A stretch of 64,000 nt of DNA, taken from the NCBI GenBank assembly GCA_026770025.1, contig JAMXDE010000018.1:1240001-1304000 (forward strand), in the 5' to 3' direction. Position numbers and translations under genes: made by a program. The DNA is from Craspedostauros australis (lineage: Eukaryota; Bacillariophyta; Bacillariophyceae; Mastogloiales; Achnanthaceae). Below are positions 38,682 through 53,330 of the stretch, one piece after another; position 1 is the stretch's first letter; every line of letters starts with the position of its first letter. The notes under the pieces are model-generated. The model made no database searches and was not told the origin of the DNA. It saw only the letters and a list, made by a program, of their open reading frames with translations.

Positions 38682-39013
38682 CTGGCATATCCATAGTGAG
38701 TTTTTTTCTGCCTTTGAAGGCAGGTTCTCTAGTGCACCTGCTTTTAAAGGCAGATCGGGGGGTTCGCAGAGGGCCAAAAATGCCTTTAAAGGCAGGCCTG
38801 CCTTTAAAGGCAGAATTCCGGCCCCTCAGAGGGGGTCAAAATCCCAAAAAATCAGACCCCAACGCAAACATGACACCCCACTGCGTCAAAACAACACGGT
38901 TTTTGCTCTACGCGATACATACGGACGTTGCAACCGCAAATTTACTTCTGGTTGCTGTGCTTTACAGACTAGTGCCAAAATTGAAGCGCACGCATGCAGC
39001 ACTTGATGTGAGC
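38682..39013 (+). repeat. About 330-bp element with nested palindromes, copy 1
   Basis: Same sequence in opposite orientation at 53011-53330. The core has two perfect 14-bp palindromes (TGCCTTTAAAGGCA) separated by GGCC, so the whole 32 bp is itself a perfect palindrome. Partial copies (GCCTTTGAAGGC, GCTTTTAAAGGC) lie just upstream. The homology starts at CATATCCAT-GTGAGTTT and ends at CACTTGATGTGA. Confidence 0.85.
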
Positions 39014-39740
39014 ATGAATAATACACCAATGCCTCTCCTTCGACAATAGCTGGTCTATACTTCTTCTAAGCATGTGGAAGATTGATAATGGTAATAGTCA
39101 TGCATATATTTCTGATTTATTACTTTAGTACAGTTGGCTTCATGGTTGCTTTGCTACGTCTACATGCAAGTTGACGTTCAGACTGACAGATGAGAGAGGA
39201 CGTCCCTCCTCCACGTGTAGATGAGGTGGTTCCGATTCTTCTCCTCTGGTTGCGCTCGGCGTCCATCTCGGTCGTGTTTTGATCGTCTTCCAGCTGCATG
39301 AGACGTCTTCCACATGTTACATTCAATTTCAAACAAATTTCATCGAGGCGTTGAAAAAAACTGCGAAAACACTCCGTTATGTAAATAGAGTCGTTTTGGT
39401 GTCTGCAACGACAGTTCGCGGTATCCAGGTTCTGGGTTGGACGGTTGTGTCCGGTTTCTGCGCCAATGAAAGTCATCGGTTTTGAGTGGCCCAGAACAAG
39501 GAACTTGGCTTGTTTTGGTGTGGGCTTGCGTCATTGTTCATGTCCATTGCACATCAAGGCACCAGGATGGGCAGAAGACGAAAAGCCGACAGCACAGCAA
39601 CTACGAAAGCAACGACGACAGCCACGACGAAAGTGAAAATGAAAGTGACACTGAAAGTGACCACAACAGCAAAGACAATGACAACATCAACATCAACAGC
39701 ACAATACCAAACTGAAAAGCCCAGCCCCTCATCATCACAT
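39014..39740. other. Spacer before minisatellite
   Basis: No supported gene. From 39640 the sequence becomes AC/AAAG-rich and grades into the minisatellite. Confidence 0.4.
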
Positions 39741-41535
39741 CCACATCGATGCGAGAAGCCAACCCCAAAGAGTGACCGATGCAGTCCATGTCCATGCTTG
39801 CCAACAGCATCGCATCGACAGCCAAATCCACTTCGATTGAAGCACGCAGTCTATGTACATGCTCTCCAACAGCATCGCACCGACAGCCACAGCCGCATCG
39901 ATTGAAGCATGCCATCCGTGTCCATGCTCTCCAACAGCATCGCACCGACAGCCACATCCACTTCGATTGAAGCATGCCGTCCATGTCCATGCTCTCCAAC
40001 AGCATCGACATCCACATCCACTCCCATTGAAGCACGCAGTCCGTGTCCATGCTCTCCAACAGCATCGACATCCACATCGACAACCACTTCTATTGAAGCA
40101 TGCCGTCCATGTCCATGCTCTCCAACAGCATCACATCGACAACAACTTCGATTGAAGCATGCCATCCGTGTCCATGCTCTCCAACAGCATCACATCGACA
40201 AACACAGTCGCATCGATCCAATCATGCCGTCCATGTCCATGCTCTCCAACAGCATCGCATCGGCAAACACATCCACTTCGATCCAATCATGCCGTTCATG
40301 TCCATGCTCTCCAACAGCATCACATTGACAGCCACATCCACTTCGATTGAAGCATGCCGTCCATGTCCATGCTCTCCAACAGCATCGCATCGACAACAAC
40401 TTCGATTGGAGCATACTGTCCATGTCCATGCTCTCCAACAGCATCGCACCGACAGCCACATCCACTTCGATTGAAGCATGCTGTCCATGTCCATGCTCTC
40501 CAACAGCATCGCATCGCATTGACAACCACTTCGATTGAAGCATGCCGTCCATGTCCATGCTCTCCAACAGCATCACATTGACAGCCACATCCACTTCGAT
40601 TGAAGCATGCCGTCCATGTCCATGCTCTCCAACAGCATCGCATCGACAACAACTTCGATTGGAGCATACTGTCCATGTCCATGCTCTCCATGCTCTCCAA
40701 CAGCATCGCATCGACAACAACTTCGATTGGAGCATACTGTCCATGTCCATGCTCTCCAACAGCATCGCATCGGCAACCACATCCACTTCGATTGAAGCAT
40801 GCCGTCCATGTCCATGCTCTCCAACAGCATCACATCGGCAACCACAGTCGCATCGATCCAATCATGCCGTCCATGTCCATGCTCTCCAACAGCATCGCAT
40901 CGACAAACACAGTCGCATCGATCCAATCATGCCGTCCATGTCCATGCTCTCCAACAGCATCGCATCGGCAACCACAGTCGCATCGATCCAATCATGCCGT
41001 CCATGTCCATGCTCTCCAACAGCATCGCATCGGCAAACACATCCACTTCGATCCAATCATGCCGTTCATGTCCATGCTCTCCAACAGCATCACATTGACA
41101 ACAACTTCGATTGAAGCATGCCGTTCATGTCCATGCTCTCCAACAGCATCACATCGACAAACACATCCACATTGATCCAATCATGCCGTCCATGTCCATG
41201 CTCTCCAACAGCATCGCATCAGCAACCACATCCACTTCGATCCAATCATGCCGTTCATGTCCATGCTCTCCAACAGCATCACATTGACAGCCACATCCAC
41301 TTCGATTGAAGCATGCCGTCCATGTCCATGCTCTCCAACAGCATCACATCGGCAACCACTTCGATTGGAGCATACTGTCCATGTCCATACTCCACAACAG
41401 TATCGACAGCCACATCCACTTCGATTGGAGCATACTGTCCATGTCCATGCTCTCCAACAGCATCACATCGACAAACACAGTCGCATCGATCCAAGCATGC
41501 CGTCCGTGTCCAAGCTCCACAATAGCATCCACATT
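39741..41535. repeat. Minisatellite of about 59-66-bp units, about 28 copies
   Basis: Every unit contains CCATGCTCTCCAACAGCATC. Two interchangeable tails follow, ending in ACTTCGATTGAAGCATGCC or ATCGATCCAATCATGCC. The units differ in length by non-multiples of three, so open frames are short and shift, which argues against coding. It lies about 650 bp beyond the 3' end of the piggyBac-like gene. Confidence 0.92.
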
Positions 41536-42183
41536 GATAGGTGGCCATTCACTGAATAGTGTATAGATTCATTTCAATGCAATATCATCTTCTTGTCATT
41601 TTTTAGCATGACTTGTGACACCATCGTTTGTTTTTTGGTTTGGTGTGGCAAGTGTTTCATTTTTTGGTTTCCGTGAGGAATAGAGAGTTGTGTTGTGTTG
41701 GATCTCCTGCGGGGCGATCCCATTTTTTTTTGTTGAGATGTTGCGATGGATTGTTTCCAATTTGCTCAAATTGTTTTCCTGATCATGAGATGCTCTATAG
41801 TAACCTTGCGATTTTTTTCGCTACTTTGCGTTTACAAATTGTATTTGTTGTTTTCTTTGTTTTCTCGAGTTTATAATTCTTACGATCTCAGTCGAGAGCA
41901 TTTGGTTCATCTGCCTTTCGCGTGTATCCACGTGTTATTTTTGATTTTTGTGTTATGCCTTTCGCGTGTATCCACGTGTTATTTTTGATTTTTGTGTTGC
42001 GCCTTTCGCGTGTATTCACGTGTTAATTTCATTTCCGTAGTTTGCCTTTCGCGTTCATAATCCGTTTGATTTTCGTGTCATTGTCTGTCTTCTGGCACAG
42101 ATCTGTTGCATCTGCGTAGGTGAGCTGATATGCTATTGATGCTGCTTTTCCCTACTGTTGGCGCGGATCTCTCTGGAGTGCAT
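41536..42183. other. Spacer with a small tandem repeat
   Basis: T-rich, no gene. It contains the four-copy repeat at 41913-42055 and the 3' flank of the transposase gene. I looked for TTAA-bounded inverted ends of a piggyBac element here and could not establish them. Confidence 0.4.
41913..42055. repeat. Four tandem 44-bp repeats with CACGTG
   Basis: GCCTTTCGCG at 41913, 41957, 42001 and 42044. The first three units carry CGTG-TATC-CACG, a small inverted repeat followed by CACGTG. Confidence 0.8.
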
Positions 42184-45100
42184 TCAGGTTGTGCGGTGTC
42201 GTTTCTTGCTGCGAGCCTTCTGTTCAGCGGCAAATTGAGCTGCCGCTCGTTTCTTCATCTCTGCCGCAGCCTTCCTGTTGTCTGCCTCCCTCCTTGCTTG
42301 CGATTCTTCTTCACCCTGTTCGTCATCTCCACCCTCTTGGGTTACTTGTGCTACTGCTGCTGCCGCTGCCCTGCCATCTGTTCCAGCTTCTTCAGCTGGT
42401 TTGTGACTGTTCTGAACTGCCACGACTGCAGGTTGAGCGGCCTTCTTCAATCCTTTCCCAACCTTCGTGCACCATTTGGTGTCTCTGCTATGCAGGATGT
42501 GGTGGCATGTGTTGGGAATCTCCAGGACCCCGTCTTTCGTGGATGCCTTCAACAGTGCCAGACGACCTGGGATGCCGCACTTCTCCATCCATGCAGACTT
42601 TGTCGGTGTGCCCACTCCGCAGACTGTCAGATGACATCCTGTGCAATATGATGTGACTTGCTGATTGCACACGACGCAGCTTCTCCTCTTGTTTGGAACC
42701 GTCACAAGGGTATGGTCCCCTTTGTACAAGCCTTCGATGAACAATGCCTCTGTTGCAGTCCTCTCAGTTGGGGTCTTCCCAAGGATGGCAAGCAATGGTT
42801 GTCGAGTCTCTGGTGCTCCATTCAATTTGAACTCACCGCCATTGCATGATTCGATGCTGCTGGGGAGATTCAGCTTTTCCCTAATGTGTCTGAGCCTCGT
42901 CTCGTCATTCGTTTCACGTGCCAGTCGGGTTTGAGTGTAAGCCACAGCCAAGTGGTGGGATAGGCGTTTGGTAATGGCAGCAAGGGAGTCACGGCAGCTC
43001 CACTTCTTGTTCATCTTGTTCCGAAGATGGATCAACGATGGTGATCGATCGAGATCTGCATTTGTCTCGATTGCCCTGTTGTCCGTGATCTGGATTAGCT
43101 TGTGCACAAGCGTCATCATCAGTTGCATCAGACGCGACACAAGTACGCATTGGAAGGAGACTTTTGGGGGCTTCACCTTGTGCTGTTCCATCAATCTTGA
43201 CATGATATCGGAACCACCCTTCATGATGTTCCATCTTGCTGCCAGCTTTGGAAGGAAGGTCTTGACACGAGGGACCGGGAAGGTGAGATTTTCACATCCT
43301 TTCCACATCATGAGCTGATGGAAGAGGTCATCCTCTGACATGTTCGGGAGGTAGGAGCCTTTGCCCTCGAAGTTGCCGCTGCCCGGATTGGATGACATGA
43401 ACTGCCTCATGAGATCTTCAGATGGAGTTCGTCCCGGTGAATCTTCTTCGTATGCAAACTCGATCACAAGCTTGTACAGATCGTCAAGCACCAAGGCATA
43501 GGCTTCCATCAATGCAGGTGTGAATCTGGTTGCAACAGATCTGAGGATCTCGGCCCCGCTGTCACCTGCTTGCCATGCCGTTCCAATCAAGTATCACAAG
43601 TAGCAGAGTGAGCAACGAGTTAGTATGGTGTCAAAAGCATGCGAACATCGTGCATTGGTGGAAGCAGCATGGACCGGATCTCATCACACATTGTCAATGC
43701 CAATGCCATCGAACTTACCAATCACCATGAGTGCTCCGCTGACACCGTAGACGAATGCATGATGGAGCAACTGGAGTCTTTCGCCTTCCTTGCGGATCAA
43801 TGCCCGAAAGATGCCGCTCTCTGAGTCTGCAAAGAGATGCAAGTTGGGATCCAACCTGTATTGGCGTTGCACAGACAACTGATGCTCCTTCTCCTCCTCC
43901 TTGGTTTTGCGCGAGGCCCTGGTCTTCATCTCGACAACAAAGACCTCATCATCTTCATCGTTGGTGCTGTCTCCGACAACTGCAAGAAAGTCAACGGATG
44001 ATCGAGCATAGGGCTTGTCTCCACGATGCACCAACCCTGCTGTGTATGCGGCCTTCACACAGCTAGGATCTCCAGTCAATTCCGATATCTTTTCAGCTTT
44101 CTTCATGAGTGGCTGCTCATTGGTGTGGCCCAGTCTGGTGGCACGTCGCTCCTCACCAGTGAAAGGCTTCATGAACCATGTCTTCAGCGCCTCTTTCACC
44201 AAGGCCTCCTTCAGTGCCATCATGCCTCCGTCCTCTTCGTTATTCCTCACATTGTTGTTGCTGATGCCTTCAGTATTGCCTTCAACATTGTGTCCGGTGG
44301 CAAGCATGACATCGGCTTCAACAGGAAGGGAAGCCAGAGAGTCGATGCCAATGCCATTGTCGGCCGATGGGAAACGGGCAAGATTGCTGGTGCTATTGCC
44401 TTCAACATCGTCGTCGGAACCGTCCACCTCCAGATTGTCAAGAGCCGGAGTGATAGATGCTTTGTCATGCCGCACCAATGCCTTCATCATTTCACCCTTT
44501 GCCGGAAGTTTGCCAGAGTTGGGGAATCTTGCCTTGTAGATCGCCTCCATGGTCTTTGGGGTCATGGCAACATACGGGCGATCCGGCTTCTGCTGTCGTT
44601 GGATCACAGTCCTGAGCTTCTTGTAGATACTGTCAGCTGTTTTTGGCTTGAATCCGCCACAGAAGAGCACCACCAATTCAGTCACATCTTCGAGCAGCCA
44701 GTCGACAGGAGGATTGTCGCGATTCTGAAGAACTTGGGTGATTGTTTGCTCGATGGATTTTGAGTCTTCGGCATCATCTGTGAGGAGATTGAATCGCTCC
44801 CGTGCCCGATTCTTGACTTCACCTGTTCCGATCTCCACATGGGCTTGTTGCTTTCTGGCTTCAACGTCGATGCCTATGAATGTGGCAATGATTTCCCATG
44901 CCTGATGATGGAGAACATGGCCATTCGTCTCCTTGCACCACTCGGTGCTGGCCAGGACCACGTTGATGATGTTGTGGACGGTGGAGCTCGTCAAGCAGAA
45001 CTTTCGCAACATGAACCAAAGCGGATCTCGCTGTTTGCAGGTCATCCCAACAACATCAAGGTCACGAATCTTCTGTGCCCATCTCATCCTCGCCTTGTCT

Positions 45101-46964
45101 TCCGCATTGTCTGCTGCCTGTGAGGCTTGTTCGGCAAGGATGACGGCTGCCTTGACTGCATCTGGGTCATTTGGTGCATTCTGGATGGCTTGAATTGCAT
45201 TGCCTCTGGCTTGAATTGCGAGCACCGCAGCAGGAGACTTCTCCAGGTTCATGACAGCTGCAGAGAAGTACTCTGGGAACTTCTCTGGATGAGCCAGAAG
45301 ATCTGGGTGATTCGTGCGCTTGGCTTGAACGTGGCGAAGGTACATGATCTCCTCTTTCACCTTTGCCATGGTGAGATCCCATTCGAACCTTCCAACTCCC
45401 GTCTTTGCCATCATGATCATCTTTCCATTGTCTCGGAGACCATAGCAACAGTAGGTTGCGCCCTTCACCTTGTTGGAGGTGGCAAGGAAGAGTCTTGTGG
45501 GTTCTGTCACACTGATCATGAGTTGGTTTGGGTTGGTCCGGTATGTTCCATTGATGAATGGCATGTGTGGAGCCCTCTTGTGAGTGCCTTGAAGGTCCGC
45601 TCCACCTTCAACAAGACCCTGTGTGAGCTTGAGAGAGCCATATCCGCGATCACAGAGAACTTCTGTGTTCTGCAAACCATTGGTGGTTTCGAATTGGGTC
45701 TTGATCAGAGTCAATGCGGTGCTTGACTTGGTTTCCTGGATGACTTGGACTCCGCAAGGGACCCCGGACATCGTCATTGCCAAAGTATCAATGGTGAATC
45801 TTTGCATTTACATTTCACAAGTTCAAGAGATAGAGAAGAAACGAAATTCGACAAGAAAGAGAGGGATGCAGACATGCATGTGGTGCGTGTGAGATTCAAA
45901 ATTATCGACAATTGTACAATCATGACATACATTCAATCCCATGATCCAAAAGCAGAGGTTGTGCACAGTACAACTCACCCCCATCTGTTGGCCTTTGGAT
46001 GCTTGTGCCGGGAGATGCCACTTCGCAATGTTTTGGTGCTCTCGCAGTGCACTTTATCATCATCGATTGTCACAGTGCGTTGGCCGGCCATGCCTCTCAC
46101 AGCCAGTTGCTTCAAAGTGTGATTGCACTGAGCCTGGAGATCCTGCCAGAAGTAGTGAGCGTTGGACTCAATCTTGTTGCTGTCTGCATGGATTTTGCAC
46201 CACCAATCATTGTACTCGGTCTTGCTCGGGGACCCCACTTTGGTGCTCAGCAAGCCCATGGTGTACATGTTTTTCGTAGATGTCCGGAAGGTTGACTGTG
46301 TGCTGAATGCAACCATGAACTGCAGGTACTCCAATGCATCCATCTTCACATCATCCTTTGCAAATGCTTCTGTGTACAGACGAGATGAGGTACCCAAGAC
46401 AAGATCAATGATATCATTCGGTGTTGGGCGTTTGCTGTCGGTGAGCTTTTGCATTGATTTCCGAATGTGCACCATCTCCTTGTTCATGATGACTTTGCTG
46501 TCTGCACGGGCTTCACCAACTGTGACATGATGCTTCTCGTCCACCCCTGTCTGCAGCTTCCACTTCAGGCTCATGCTTGCCAGCTTTGCTGCATCGGATT
46601 TGGTGTTGCGGGTGGATGCAAGTGCAATTGTAGGAGTGGGATTGGCATTGTTGGTGTTCGAGATGTTGTTATCCTGCGTAGAATCTGCATTTTCGTTCTC
46701 TTCTTCCATGAGGTAGTTGCTGTTGGAGTTGGAGGTGCTACTCTTGGGATCCGTTGTGTCCAAGTCATCTCCAGTAGTGTCATTGTTGTCATCATCCAGA
46801 TCAAAGTCATCAGGAGTCCAAATGACTGTGTTGTCATCCGAAGGATGGACAACAGCATCTCTATCAAGTAGTTCCAAGTCTAGATTGTCTGGATCAATGC
46901 CTCCGTTGCTATCATCATCCTCCCACAAGTCATCATTGCCTCCGAAAGCATGATCCAAAGACAT
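42184..46964 (-). CDS. PiggyBac-like transposase with inserted YqaJ-type nuclease domain
   Basis: Three exons: 46964-45979, 45799-43719, 43565-42184; introns of 179 and 153 bp, the second with a TACTAAC branch-point match. Spliced length is 1482 aa. The first GTG of the frame is ignored in favour of ATG 46964. An acidic Asn/Ser/Asp N-terminus precedes the DDE core. First Asp group: TIDDDK at about 301-303. Second: LCDRGYGS, D379. Third: MKGGSDIMSR, D1142, equivalent to the GGVD motif of piggyBac. The C-terminus has a Cys/His cluster (CVVC, CTGC, C, then CHHILH; about 1319-1381) like the piggyBac zinc module, then a basic KKRHRTT tail. Between the second and third Asp lie DPLWFMLRKFCLTSS (about 587-601), GHTNE, SVDFLAV (D932), VVEMKTR (E952, K954) and HHAFVYGVSGALMVIG, the motif order of YqaJ/lambda-exonuclease-type PD-(D/E)XK enzymes. 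No disabling mutation was seen. The last intron acceptor could be 3 nt earlier. Confidence 0.8.
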
Positions 46965-47781
46965 GGTCACTCAATAGATGTAACACAAATCTAAGAATCT
47001 TGCACAGGGCTGGCTGCAATGAACTAAGTTGAGGTACAAGTGGAATGTGGGGTGGATGAGTGCAGCAGCTCTATTTGTTCCAAAAGCTATTAATAGATCG
47101 ATTTGATGATGATAGTGTTGTTGAGAGATTTGATCGATTCGTTGAGTCCCACAAGAGATTTTGAGTCACGGAAGAAATGTCCCCCTCCCAAATCTCGATT
47201 CTGGCTCAGCAGTGGTTGGTGTGGACGGGCTTTCGATGTTCCCAAACGCGAGTCAACTTGGGTTGAGGCGTTTTATGACATGAGGAGGGTGTGGGGAATA
47301 ATGATTTCATTCCAACAAATGGCTCCAAACCTCCAGACACAACCGTTGGTTTCAGTGCAGGCAGAGACCAGTGACTTCAGAAACCATCCGTTGAGTTTGA
47401 AAACTTTTGCGTGGTGCGCATTACCAATACTCCCGTGATCATCCAAACACGAGTCCGTCGGCCCAAACAGCAACAGCAAAAAACTCGGCGAGTGGTGCAA
47501 ACGGAGTCCAGATTGAGCGTCAGACACAGGACCGTCACCACAACAATCGAAAAACTTGATCATTATCACATCCGCATCCCAACCACATACACCGACATTG
47601 CATACATTACATCCATTGCGTCCATTGCACCATGACATCGCATCGACGCTCAGCAATTTCTTCATTTTAACCGTCGCATAAGCACCACATCACACCCATT
47701 GACCTTGGCATCTGCAAACAAGCAAAATGCATGAAGGCCAAAAAGCCCTCGAATCCACAGACGCGTCAGAACGCCCATCCA
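46965..47781. other. 5' flank of the transposase gene
   Basis: Presumed promoter side; no other gene. A/T-rich near 47090. No inverted terminal repeat recognised. Confidence 0.4.
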
Positions 47782-49762
47782 GTCAAGATCACATCACACC
47801 AATTGGTCTCTCGCGTCTGAATGCCCATCCACTCCAGATCGCGTCAAACCCATCGGTCTCTCGCATGTGAACGAGTATCCGCTCCAGATCGCATCACACC
47901 CATTCGTTGATTGCACCTGGACGAGTATCCGCTCCAGATCGCATCACACCCAATGGTCGATTGCACCTGGACGAGTATCCGTTCCAGATCGCATCACACC
48001 CATTGGTCGATTGCACCTGGACGAGTATCCGCTCCAGATCGCATCAAACCCATCGGTCTCTCGCATGTGAACGAGTATCCGCTCCACATCACATCACACC
48101 CATCGGTCTCTCCCATCTGAACGACCATCCGCTCCAGATCTCATCACACCCATTGGTCAATTGCACCTGGACGACCATCCGCTCCAGATCGCATCACACC
48201 CAATGGTCGATTGCACCTGGACGAGTATCCGCTCCAGATCGCATCACACCCATTCGTTGATTGCACCTGGACGACCATCCGCTCCAGATCGCATCACACC
48301 CATCGGTCTCTCCCATCTGAACGACCATCCGCTCCAGATCGCATCACACCCAATGGTCGGTTGCACCTGGACGAGAATCCGCTCCAGATCACATCACACC
48401 CATCGGTCTCTCCCATCTGAACGAGAATCCGCTCCAGATCGCATCACACCCAATGGTCAATTGCACCTGGACGACCATCCGCTCCAGATCGCATCACACC
48501 CATTGGTCACTCCCACCTGGACGACCATCCGCTCCAGATCTCATCACACCCATTGGTCGATTGCACCTGGACGAGAATCCGCTCCAGATCACATCACACC
48601 CATCGGTCTCTCCCATCTGAATGAGTATCCGCTCCAGATCGCATCACACCCATTCGTTGATTGCACCTGGACGAGTATCCGCTCCAGATCGCATCACACA
48701 CATCGGTCTCTCGCACCTGAACGAGAATCCGCTCCAGATCGCATCACACCCATCGGTCTCTCGCACCTGGACGAGTATCCGCTCCAGATCGCATCACACC
48801 CATCGGTCTCTCCCATCTGAACGAGAATCCGCTCCAGATCGCATCACACCCAATGGTCGGTTGCACCTGGACGAGAATCCGCTCCAGATCACATCACACC
48901 CATCGGTCTCTCCCATCTGAACGACCATCCGCTCCAGATCGCATCACACCCATTGGTCGATTGCATCTGAACGACCATCCGCTCCAGATCGCATCACACC
49001 CATCGGTCTCTCGCACCTGAACGACCATCCGCTCCAGATCGCATCACACCCAATGGTCGGTTGCACCTGAACGACCATCCGCTCCAGATCGCATCACACC
49101 CAATGCTCGATTGCACCTGAACAAGTATCCGCTCCAGATCGCATCACACCCATTCGTTGATTGCACCTGGACGACCATCCGCTCCAGATCTCATCACACC
49201 CATCGGTCTCTCCCATCTGAACGAGTATCCGCTCCAGATCGCATCACACCCATTGGTCAATTGCACCTGGACGAGAATCCGGTCCACATCACATCACACC
49301 CAATGGTCGGTTGCACCTGAACGACCATCCGCTCCAGATCTCATCACACCCATTGGTCTCTCGCACCTGGACGAGTATCCGCTCCAGATCGCATCACACC
49401 CAATGGTCAATTGCACCTGGACGAGTATCCGCTCCAGATCGCATCACACCCAATGGTCGGTTGCACCTGAACGACCATCCGCTCCAGATCGCATCACACC
49501 CATTGGTCGATTGCACCTGGACGAGAATCCGCTCCAGATCGCATCACACCCATTGGTCTCTCGCACCTGGACGACCATCCGCTCCAGATCGCATCACACC
49601 CATTGGTCGATTGCATTGAACGACCATCCGCTCCAGATCACATCACACCCATCGGTCTCTCGCATCTGAACGCCCATCCGCTCCAGATTGAATCACATCC
49701 ATAGGTCTCTCGCATCTGAACGCCTATCCACTCCAGATCACATCACATCCATCAGGCTCTTG
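47782..49762. repeat. 50-bp minisatellite, about 40 copies
   Basis: GCTCCAGATC recurs every 50 bp with almost no length change. The constant block ATCCGCTCCAGATC plus GCATCACACC alternates with a variable block drawn from a few discrete states: ATTGGTCGA or ATCGGTCTC; TTGCACCTGG or TCGCATCTGA; ACGAGTATCC, ACGACCATCC or ACGAGAATCC. States combine freely between units. The first and last units are the most diverged. Frames are open because 150 is divisible by three, but no start or gene context supports translation. Confidence 0.95.
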
Positions 49763-50565
49763 CATCTGCATCCACCATTCATCGCATGCATGTTTTGATG
49801 CACCACACTTTTGTCAAATCAATAGCACTTGCTGTCATGTTTTGGCACTCCAGTGTGAGACTTGTTAGCTTGGACAGTTCAGTCCAGAGCAACATTGCAT
49901 TAGATCCCAAGAAGCGCTTATCATGCTATGTGTCAGCGCAGGATCATTCGAAAAGAACATGAAGTGTGCCATGCGAACACCTCACTGGCGATGTATAAGA
50001 ATATTGAATTTAAATGTAAATTGACTTTAAATGTAACATCATTCCCGATGATAACATGAGGTGTGCTCCCCAAAACTATGGAGGGCATCATACAGCTGTC
50101 ACTTCGTCATCCAAGATGATGTGTGCCATCAAGTCATTCCTTCCACCTACTTGCCACATTGTCTCCATATACCCTAAACATAGCCACCCGTGACAAGCAT
50201 GCCACATTATATCGCCATGCAATGCACATTGTCAGTCCACAGTTGAAAACCAATATGTTTGGCAATGAAGGTCGATCCGGAGGTGGCTGCTGTGCTGGAT
50301 CATATCTCTTGCTCGCAACCATGTCAGTTCTCCTCATGCAGCACACCCCAGAACCTGATGTATTGAGGACACCCCGATGTATCCCAAATTGCTCCAAGTT
50401 GCATCTCTGCAATTCAATCCATCCTGATGCTGGTGCCATTGTCAGTTGTCTGTCATGTCAATAACATGCATTTGCTGCATTTGATCGATTGCAACCTCTT
50501 CCATTCAATAAATCTAATCCCCACTTCTCCATCCCATTCGTGGCTTGATGCTTCACATAGCTTGC
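49763..50565. other. Spacer
   Basis: No supported gene or repeat. A TTTAAATGTAAATTGACTTTAAATGTAA imperfect repeat occurs near 50008-50035. Confidence 0.4.
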
Positions 50566-50777
50566 ATGGGTGGGTTGGCAATGTGGTGGATGTTCATATG
50601 CACCACCACACCAGAAAAAGTCATGTGATAGGTGCTTCATCATCCCTCGGAAACCGATTGTCCTCTGCTTGTTCCTTTCTGTCAATACTTTCCGCGCAGC
50701 CTTTCAACCTCAAACTTCGTAGGAACCTCCAACTTTATTCCTTTGATGCGTCCTGCTCATCCATAGTTGTTGGAATG
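50566..50777 (+). repeat. Diverged dispersed repeat, copy B
   Basis: Counterpart of 9898-10112 in the same orientation. It lies directly upstream of the non-LTR retrotransposon fragment. Confidence 0.5.
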
Positions 50778-50782
50778 TCAAT

Positions 50783-51804
50783 GTGGAGGTGGGTTGTCTG
50801 GCGGGCGCGGCGAGAGTGTCCTTGCCAGAGGAGCACGTCTACCGGGGCTATATATATGGGGAGCAAGTGTCATTTCATCGTCAGTCCAAGCTGATGTCGG
50901 TACGGTTTGCCAGTGTTTTGGAGCGGCACGCAGCCCAGGAGGCCATTGGGGTCCTGCAGGCAAGGCGAGTGCTCCATCACGGCGACCAGGTACATTGGGC
51001 AGCCGTCGCGGGAGCGTTGCAAGGCCTTGACCACACAAAGAAGATTCTCTCAATCAAGCTCATAGCTGGAGAGGCGGCTGCAGGCCAACAAATGAAGCGA
51101 TGGGGCCTGTGCGACTCTGATAAGTGTCCCAATTGTGGGGAACGGGAGAGCAGTGAGCACTTTTGGGAATGCAGAGACCGGGCGAGAGTGCAAGTGGCGA
51201 CCAGGCACGTGGCAAGCATATGCGGCTGGATGCAGAAATATCCCACAAGCCCGGACGTCATGCAGGCGATAGTTTCAGCGCTGTGCAGCCAAATCAGCAC
51301 CATGGTCCTGTTACGTCCGGCGGATATGAGTGCGGGCATGCAGACAGCGTTGGGAAGCCAGCAGTCCATAGGAGCGACGGCCTTGCGAAAGGGTTTGGTC
51401 TCCGAACAATGGAGTATCCTCCAAGGTCAATTTCTGAAAAGTCAGGACACGGAAAAACGGCCAGAAAGTGGTCAGCACAACTCATTCGACGAATCTGGAA
51501 AATAGCGTGGGAGCAATGGCGGCTTCGGAACGAAGCGCAGTTTCATCAAGAAGACTCGGTCGAAGCCGAAATGGAGCAAGCTTTGCAGCAGCGAGTAGCT
51601 TCAGGTCGGTGTCACCTCGAGGAAGTTCAGCCAAGCCACGAGCGGATGGTCCGCACAGCTCCAGGAAGGGAGGCGCTGGTACAACAGGCCACGGTTTGGC
51701 TGGAGCAGGCTGCACGAATATTGGCGGAGCTGATTGCCCATGGTACATTGCTCCGCTGGATTCAATACAAGCAGCACGCCCAGCCCGATCCCAGTGGAAG
51801 TTAG
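50783..51804 (+). pseudogene. 3' fragment of a non-LTR retrotransposon ORF (zf-RVT region)
   Basis: The C-terminal part of a LINE-type polyprotein. Motifs in order are EHVYRGYIYGEQVSFHR, VHWAAVAGALQGLD, MKRWGLCDSDKCPNCG and EHFWEC (a C-x2-C...H-x3-C zinc motif typical of the region after RT), then RKWSAQLIRRIWKIAWEQWR. RT itself is absent, so this is a 5'-truncated copy. The frame shifts by one base near 51450, inside GGAAAAACGG; the first part then runs out at 51505 while the second continues to 51804. Retrotransposon origin is inferred from motif order; I did not find a poly-A tail or target duplication. Confidence 0.65.
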
Positions 51805-53010
51805 CAGGGTCGCCGAGGGAGCTCGTCCAGTGTCATGATGCACATCAATTACGTACTACAGATTCCGTGCTCTCTTCTCGCACAGCAGGAAGTTGCAAAG
51901 AGGCGGAGCAAGGCGCCTACGGAGCAGATGCCCAGGAGGTAATCTAATCTTTGCATTTTAATTATTATCAGAGTTGTTGCAATGACTTGTGTCATCCACA
52001 CACAGCCGGTATCCAACATGCAAACATGCGGCATTCTTGCACCTTTCGCTTATTTCTCTGTCGATGCCTCAAATGAACAACTGCAACAACGCCCTCTCAT
52101 CCATCCACCAAGATTTTCATGGTGGTTACATCTGCACAGTTGGATGTTGCATTGGACTGATCGTTGGTGCAATACGTACATGGCATTTGACTGTCCTTGC
52201 AGAGTCTGGATTGATTTTGCCATTGTCGATTGCAGACTGAGTACGGTGCAGTTGTGCCTGTTCGTCCTCACGCATTGACTTGGCTTGTTGTGGTGAATGC
52301 CGAAAGGCGGATGTGTTGGATTTTTGCACAAGACGGAGGCAGCTCCGGAGAACGACGAAAAGTGGATGCGCGACCCATAATTCGTTTGATTGGCTGATGC
52401 TGTTTGTCATCCGTGTCGAACGTGTACCGGTGACAGAATGGACCGCGAATACAGCAGAGTTGGCATGGTAACGTCAAATCATTTCCGTTAACCGCCGGTG
52501 AAAACAACGGACACAAGGGGTCGAACACTGAGCAAAGCGATGACAGAACAACGGTAATTGTACGAGGTTTGTTTGAGACACGCACGAAAGAAGACCATGT
52601 GTGGCACATGTATCGGAGATCATGTTTTACAAAACTTTGTCAAGTCCTCGGACATCCACATGTTCCACACACAGGATCCGAGCCTCATCTTCGACGGCCG
52701 AGGTCTGTCCGTCGATTAGTGATACACGACCAATGTCGCAACAACCAACCACCAAAAGGCATGATGCCACACCAACACCGACGATCAGCACAAGCATGCC
52801 ACACAACAACACGAAGAACCGCGAAGAGAAATGATTCAGGTAGACGCTCTCTAGACGCAAACCGCTGCAATGTAAACGTCAAACTAAAGGCGAGCCGATG
52901 ACAATCAAAGTGTATCTACCAGCAATTCTGATATAGTTGCATACGACGAATGCGGTGGATCAATTGCCATTGGCATTGAAGCATTGTATGCAATAGTGTA
53001 AAATACATGG
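51805..53010. other. Spacer
   Basis: No supported gene. Short motif-free frames on both strands. Confidence 0.4.
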
Positions 53011-53330
53011 TCACATCAAGTGCTGCATGCGTGCGCTTCAATTTTGGCACTAGTCTGTAAAGCACAGCAACCAGAAGTAAATTTGCGGTTGCAACGTCCG
53101 TATGTATCGCGTAGAGCAAAAACCGTGTTGTTTTGACGCAGTGGGGTGTCATGTTTGCGTTGGGGTCTGATTTTTTGGGATTTTGACCCCCTCTGAGGGG
53201 CCGGAATTCTGCCTTTAAAGGCAGGCCTGCCTTTAAAGGCATTTTTGGCCCTCTGCGAACCCCCCGATCTGCCTTTAAAAGCAGGCGCGCTAAGAACACC
53301 GTGAAACAAAACTCACCATGGATATGACCA
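53011..53330 (-). repeat. About 330-bp element with nested palindromes, copy 2
   Basis: Reverse orientation copy of 38682-39013, nearly identical over about 275 bp and more diverged in the last 45 bp, where copy 1 has an extra GCCTTTGAAGGC palindrome. The 32-bp double palindrome is intact at about 53211-53242. Confidence 0.85.

Follow-up and report, generated by a model that had tools for sequence, protein, structure and literature searches.

Transposases with the RNase-H fold frequently have an insertion domain between the second and the third acidic residues, where it helps handle the second strand. Transposases of piggyBac show a Cys/His-rich pattern at the C-terminus, and the target of piggyBac is a 4-bp palindrome. 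In the excerpted text of PMC2872659, the ends of piggyBac elements are CC[C/T]T and the target is TTAA. In ISL2EU, a member of the PHIS superfamily, YqaJ is present as a separate open reading frame (ORF), the duplication is AT, and the ends usually begin with GG; the species listed in the excerpted text are animals (PMC4482050). KolobokP elements are composite-like transposons which combine a Kolobok transposase with a His-Me finger homing endonuclease, according to the excerpted text of PMC9587614. Here, we report a transposon from the diatom Craspedostauros australis, in which a predicted YqaJ-like nuclease lies inside the catalytic core of the transposase. It is located in a stretch of 64,000 nucleotides (GCA_026770025.1, contig JAMXDE010000018.1, positions 1,240,001 to 1,304,000 of the forward strand), hereafter the window. 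All positions below are those of the window unless a locus is named, and the transposase-nuclease gene occupies 42184-46964 on the minus strand.

It is likely that this gene encodes the DDD transposase of an autonomous cut-and-paste DNA transposon, with a YqaJ-like nuclease between the second and the third Asp, insertion at ATAT, and a two-site mechanism which we infer. The probability of this reading is roughly 0.7. With somewhat less than even odds, the family may further represent a transposon lineage of its own next to piggyBac, whose DDD transposase has acquired a PD-(D/E)XK nuclease of the phage type as its insertion domain, so that one polypeptide contains two metal-dependent sites for end processing and integration at ATAT.

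The element resembles ISL2EU in that a DDE transposon brings a YqaJ exonuclease. In contrast to ISL2EU as given in the excerpted source, the YqaJ-like nuclease is within the transposase, the target is ATAT, and the ends are CC (PMC4482050). It also resembles KolobokP, a eukaryotic DDD/E element that encodes an endonuclease as well, but in the excerpted description the nuclease of KolobokP is a His-Me finger nuclease and its transposase is of the Kolobok type (PMC9587614). Open-licence PMC literature was searched for YqaJ in connection with piggyBac or transposases, for piggyBac elements of diatoms and stramenopiles, and for an association of piggyBac with ATAT. The architecture was not described among the papers listed, in agreement with a preliminary description of the gene, made from the nucleotide sequence without database searches, which knew of no transposase with such an insertion.

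Structure of the Predicted Transposase-Nuclease Gene

The gene consists of three exons separated by GT-AG introns, and in-frame splicing gives 1,482 codons and a stop. Exon 1 (45979-46964, minus strand, as are all parts of the gene) encodes the N-terminal region and the first catalytic Asp, D301 (codon 46062-46064). Exon 2 (43719-45799) encodes the second catalytic Asp, D379 (codon 45649-45651), the helical insertion, and the nuclease. Exon 3 (42184-43565) encodes the third catalytic Asp, D1142 (codon 43207-43209), in the motif WNIMKGGSD, and a Cys/His cluster near the C-terminus (42490-42678). Intron 1 (45800-45978) has the boundaries GTGAGT...AAAG and intron 2 (43566-43718) has GTAAGT...GCAG. 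An alternative acceptor 3 bp upstream is possible for exon 3, which would then start from 43568. The copy in the window has no disabling lesion.

The motifs begin at residues 299 (TIDDDK), 377 (LCDRGYGS), 886 (GHTNE), 930 (SVDF), 952 (EMKTR), 1010 (AFVYGV), 1139 (GGSD), and 1319 (CVVC), and the W..LR..LTSS block corresponds to residues 590-601. Conservation was analyzed in alignments of 8 or 10 rows, which contain families sharing 22-34% identity with the window protein. In the smaller alignment, all eight rows have T-[IL]-DDDKVH around the first Asp. In the alignment of ten rows, D379 and the residues of W..R..TS, GxxxE, SxDF, ExK, and Q/HH are invariant, and so are WNxxKGGSD at the third Asp and seven Cys/His residues of the C-terminal cluster (C1319, C1322, C1330, C1333, C1338, C1376, and H1381).

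The preliminary description had pointed out TIDDDK, LCDRGYGS, GGSD, and the C-terminal Cys/His cluster, three exons in frame without a disabling lesion, about 760 residues between the second and the third Asp, and a candidate nuclease site formed by D932, E952, and K954. The motifs and their positions, the gene structure, and the residue numbering were all reproduced here. The distance from D379 to D1142 is 763 residues, and D932, E952, and K954 are invariant in the ten rows.

Putative Nuclease Inside the Catalytic Core

The nuclease is divided into two pieces. Nuclease piece 1 (44845-45102, minus strand) has TC.Q...W..R....TSS, the N-terminal motif of lambda exonuclease and YqaJ. Nuclease piece 2 (43714-44214, minus strand) has GHTNE, SVDF, EMK, and LHHAFVYGV, with the residues E890, D932, E952, and K954; these coordinates are for the aligned piece, whose final codons extend 5 bp beyond the exon-2 donor. 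Between them lies a helical region, residues 648-777 (44455-44844, minus strand), for which the block-mean predicted local distance difference test (pLDDT) score by AlphaFold2 is 76-92. The gap between TS and the glycine of GxxxE is 286 residues in the window protein and 225 residues in the related family L039, and it is larger in some families.

The insertion was compared with a YqaJ profile of 11 nucleases: nine phage sequences, lambda exonuclease, and the single strong Pfam YqaJ match of the genome (G000:C25:34761-35165, E 1.6e-17). The phage sequences were found by similarity to this genomic match; seven are annotated as exonuclease, one as hypothetical, and one is unannotated. There are two Pfam YqaJ matches in the whole genome, and both, including the strong one, are outside the transposase-nuclease family.

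With HHalign, nuclease piece 1 alone matched the YqaJ profile with a probability of 71% and nuclease piece 2 alone with 51%. The concatenated pieces reached 94.9% with an E-value of 4.2e-8, and the unjoined nuclease region reached 40%. The negative controls from the same protein, namely the transposase part, exon 1, and exon 3, showed ~0.3% or less. Column permutations never reached the real score (0/100 each for piece 1, piece 2, the joined pieces, and the unjoined region). The score was 59.3 for the joined pieces against a permuted maximum of 23.2, and 37.3 for the unjoined region against 24.9. The preliminary description had placed a YqaJ-like nuclease in the segment from the second to the third Asp, and this proposal held in these comparisons.

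The likeness to YqaJ, lambda exonuclease, and RecE-like phage nucleases includes W..R....TaS, G...E, S.D, and E.K in the same order, in addition to the profile-profile match, and a Q..HH region is also alike by eye. In contrast to these nucleases, the motifs are split and embedded in a transposase, and Pfam YqaJ is negative. The homology of the insertion with YqaJ is supported by profiles and motifs, not by the fold, and the nuclease is putative in this sense.

Copies, Families, and Selection

The genome searched consists of 74.8 Mb in 90 contigs. The exon-2 protein as a query gave 115 matches, with pieces counted singly. Eight of them are full-length and near-identical copies: the window's own copy and seven copies with 93-97% amino acid identity. 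One further near-identical copy is partial (92%) and another is in pieces (84-97%). The remaining matches are 26-50% identical and represent many families. No relative was confirmed in viral and prokaryote contigs.

Ten divergent loci were inspected for the gene structure. Seven of them have exons 1, 2, and 3 in order, while exon 1 was not found in two and exon 3 was not found in one. The codon position of the intron-1 donor is shared in six of the seven loci by script and in the seventh by eye. A query of the final 98 residues of exon 2 had 87 matches in the genome, and 50 nuclease matches with at least 93 residues and at least 46% identity were selected from them. In 47 of these 50, an exon-3 match on the same strand follows downstream at a distance of 93-155 bp. 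Exons 1 to 3 are, as far as the genomic sequences indicate, one gene and not three.

The ratio of nonsynonymous to synonymous substitution rates (dN/dS) was computed for the 28 pairs among the eight near-identical copies. The two nuclease pieces gave 0.17 and 0.19, the exon-2 transposase part 0.23, the helical region 0.27, and the linker 0.52. By these ratios, the nuclease is under purifying selection as strong as that on the exon-2 transposase part.

Matches in ten copies, which are relatives of L040 (e.g., G000:C1:2148941-2150593), covered the 5' part and also the 3' tail, with no match to the nuclease core or to most of exon 3. Judged from the limits of the matches, these are apparently non-autonomous deletion derivatives that have multiplied. 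Four near-identical copies of the window family (L022, L025, L026, and L030) are located at most ~17 kb from contig ends. This placement perhaps reflects a subtelomeric preference.

Mobile Element, Termini, and Target Site

The preliminary description took 42184-46964 as its object. This interval covers the gene, but the mobile element is larger and spans 38687-53325, which is 14,639 bp including ATAT at both ends, with inverted repeats of ~330 bp. The two target-site copies, at 38687-38690 and 53322-53325, were recognized by the inverted-repeat search, and the duplication of ATAT was shown in a related element. The left terminal inverted repeat (38691-39030, plus strand) starts with CCATAGTG and contains CTGCCTTTAAAGGCAG palindromes. 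It is 98% identical to the right end over 297 bp plus 19 terminal bp, and 94% identity was seen over positions 1-340 of the query. The right terminal inverted repeat is at 52996-53321 on the minus strand. The inverted repeat of the window element has 39 genomic matches, several of which flank near-identical copies.

The ends of elements were determined by inverted-repeat searches without any motif for several families and the window, and a motif scan then completed the set. All eight elements with both ends, which are the window element and seven elements of 5.2-6.6 kb, have the structure ATAT-CC...GG-ATAT. Among the ten divergent loci, only the left end was found in one and neither end in two. 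The left ends are CCAT, CCGT, or CCAC.

An empty site was found for the L039 family. When the flanks of L039 were joined with a single ATAT (124 nt), 40 places were matched across the join among the matches listed, 18 over the full 124 nt and two at 99%. The 26-mer at the join, with one ATAT, has 58 exact copies in the genome, and its reversed control has none. Because the empty site has a single ATAT, ATAT is the duplicated target in the L039 family. These data support that the lineage inserts at ATAT and that ATAT is duplicated in one family tested.

At L041, near 880-900, an element of the B family starts exactly at the ATAT that closes an F-type element. This arrangement fits ATAT as a target, as if the B-family element were inserted into an older target copy.

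The window element is far longer than the related families of 5.2-6.6 kb. Its length of 14.6 kb is due to two satellite arrays, with 65-bp units at 39779-41529 and with 50-bp units at 47786-49768, and ~3 kb of other sequence. Overlapping ORFs are also present at 50747-51944, and one of them has a CPNC...EHFWEC stretch, which we take to recall the C-terminal zinc knuckle of reverse-transcriptase genes. Pfam gave nothing for these ORFs.

Relationship to piggyBac

The transposase part was compared with the piggyBac superfamily (DDE_Tnp_1_7), represented by Trichoplusia ni piggyBac (6X67) and piggyBat (9C0F), and with L036, a canonical piggyBac of the same genome. The genome contains 160 Pfam DDE_Tnp_1_7 matches to canonical piggyBac, with pieces counted singly. 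The transposase ORF of L036 (L036:7701-9698) adjoins a copy of the transposase-nuclease family.

The resemblance includes a collinear DDD triad, a GGxD-type motif at the third Asp, the spacing between the first and the second Asp (78 residues versus 75 in L036), the C-terminal Cys/His cluster, the ends starting with CC, and a 4-bp palindromic target composed only of A and T. With three piggyBacs as the template, hhalign aligned the core without the insertion along 188 columns that include all three Asp residues, with a P-value of 8.6e-4 and a probability of 23.5%. None of 170 permutations reached the score. The block P-x(5,6)-[YW]-N-x-x-[MK]-[GK]-G-[VS]-D is shared by 8/8 family rows and 3/3 piggyBacs, and D-x20-GT by 8/8 family rows and 2/3 piggyBacs. 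The match to the IS4 family is confined to 37 columns at the second Asp, where the DRGY motif is located, and the IS5 control showed nothing (0.35%).

Differences from piggyBac are also clear. The second and the third Asp are separated by 763 residues filled with the nuclease, in contrast to 124 residues in L036, and no Pfam match is obtained. The target is ATAT instead of TTAA, and the ends CCAT, CCGT, and CCAC are close but not identical to CC[C/T]T, the sequences given in the excerpted text (PMC2872659). Regarding the classification as piggyBac-type in the preliminary description, the collinearity stands; the low hhalign probability, the negative Pfam result, and ATAT in place of TTAA do not agree with it. 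The collinear motifs support piggyBac as the probable nearest known relative of the DDD transposase. We consider, with moderate confidence, that the kinship extends through the three Asp residues and that the transposase is piggyBac-like, yet we do not assign it as a member of piggyBac.

Alternative Interpretations

Several results weigh against our reading as a transposon with a YqaJ-like nuclease and a piggyBac-like transposase. Searches with Pfam YqaJ and DDE_Tnp_1_7 had been suggested as checks. Pfam YqaJ (PF09588) showed no match in the window gene, and the support for YqaJ came instead from profile-profile comparison. The lack of HMM support for YqaJ, which the preliminary description had named as a refutation, thus applies to Pfam but not to the profile-profile comparison. 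DDE_Tnp_1_7 showed no match at E<=10 for four spliced cores (of eight made) and none at E<=1 for the window exons. A longer core with a single piggyBac template gave no signal, as 18 of 87 permutations scored as high. The IS4/IS186 control scored slightly above piggyBac, with 0/100 permutations reaching its score. Structure prediction, another suggested check, yielded the helical region described above, but the nuclease models are of low confidence, with mean pLDDT of 54 and 65 in two predictions. The second model shows, at this low confidence, the order of a helix, a strand run, a long helix, and a final helix and strand; structure searches with these models named no convincing PD-(D/E)XK protein. 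Finally, an empty site was sought for the L031 and window insertions and none was found, so that one of the three insertions tested was positive.

How far do these points favor other explanations? The likeness to YqaJ could be fortuitous and the insertion could be something else. This is improbable, since two separate blocks match the profile in the right order with the joint E-value given above, other regions of the protein do not match, and no permutation reached the real score in any of the four tests. If the insertion descends from a nuclease, it may now function only in DNA binding or in support of the fold. In other RNase-H-fold transposases, the insertion domain has no catalytic function, and the long insertion that splits the nuclease motifs points in the same direction. 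Against such a loss of activity, SxDF...ExK, GxxxE, and Q/HH are invariant in the ten rows and dN/dS of nuclease piece 2 is 0.19; we give it a low probability. An active nuclease could still have a role separate from transposition, such as resection of the donor break or of competing DNA, or a fight against the host or rival elements, and could be dispensable for excision and insertion. YqaJ of ISL2EU, which sits on a second ORF and whose role is unknown in the excerpted source, implies that a transposon can make use of a nuclease of this kind in trans (PMC4482050). The position inside the transposase core, in line with exon 3 in nearly all selected copies, and the conservation as strong as that of the exon-2 transposase part make a separate role rather unlikely.

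It is also doubtful, though worth consideration, that the transposase is unrelated to piggyBac and falls into a different DDE superfamily, e.g., close to IS4, or into a superfamily of its own. ATAT rather than TTAA, the absence of a DDE_Tnp_1_7 match, and the match of the DRGY motif to IS4-family enzymes above permutations are in line with this. The short extent of the IS4 match and the negative IS5 control contrast with the three collinear Asp residues over 188 columns of piggyBac, and the third-Asp block and D-x20-GT are shared with piggyBacs. Domestication as a host gene, which the preliminary description had considered, was based on the intact reading frame, and purifying selection could be added to it. 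The near-identical copies, the terminal repeats with ATAT flanks, the empty site of a related element, and the deletion derivatives indicate a multi-copy transposon and leave domestication with hardly any probability.

Proposed Mechanism and Implications

In the cut-and-paste transposition that we favor, transposase subunits would bring the inverted repeats together. The ends of the element would be released by the DDD site and joined to a new ATAT cut in a staggered manner, in the way piggyBac uses TTAA. The role of the in-line nuclease is conjectural: we infer that a metal-dependent nuclease beside the DDD site may process the strand beyond the reach of the DDD site. Its substrate would most likely be the 5' (non-transferred) strand or a hairpin at the element end. 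Alternatively, the nuclease may resect the donor break, and repair from the sister copy would then restore the element.

Cutting of the second strand and handling of the donor break vary among DDE families and are a central question of transposition. With a nuclease within the transposase core, this question can be tested in a single protein by introducing point mutations separately. The 4-bp ATAT target system is a potential genetic tool. By analogy, the finding could also bear on why ISL2EU elements keep their YqaJ gene.

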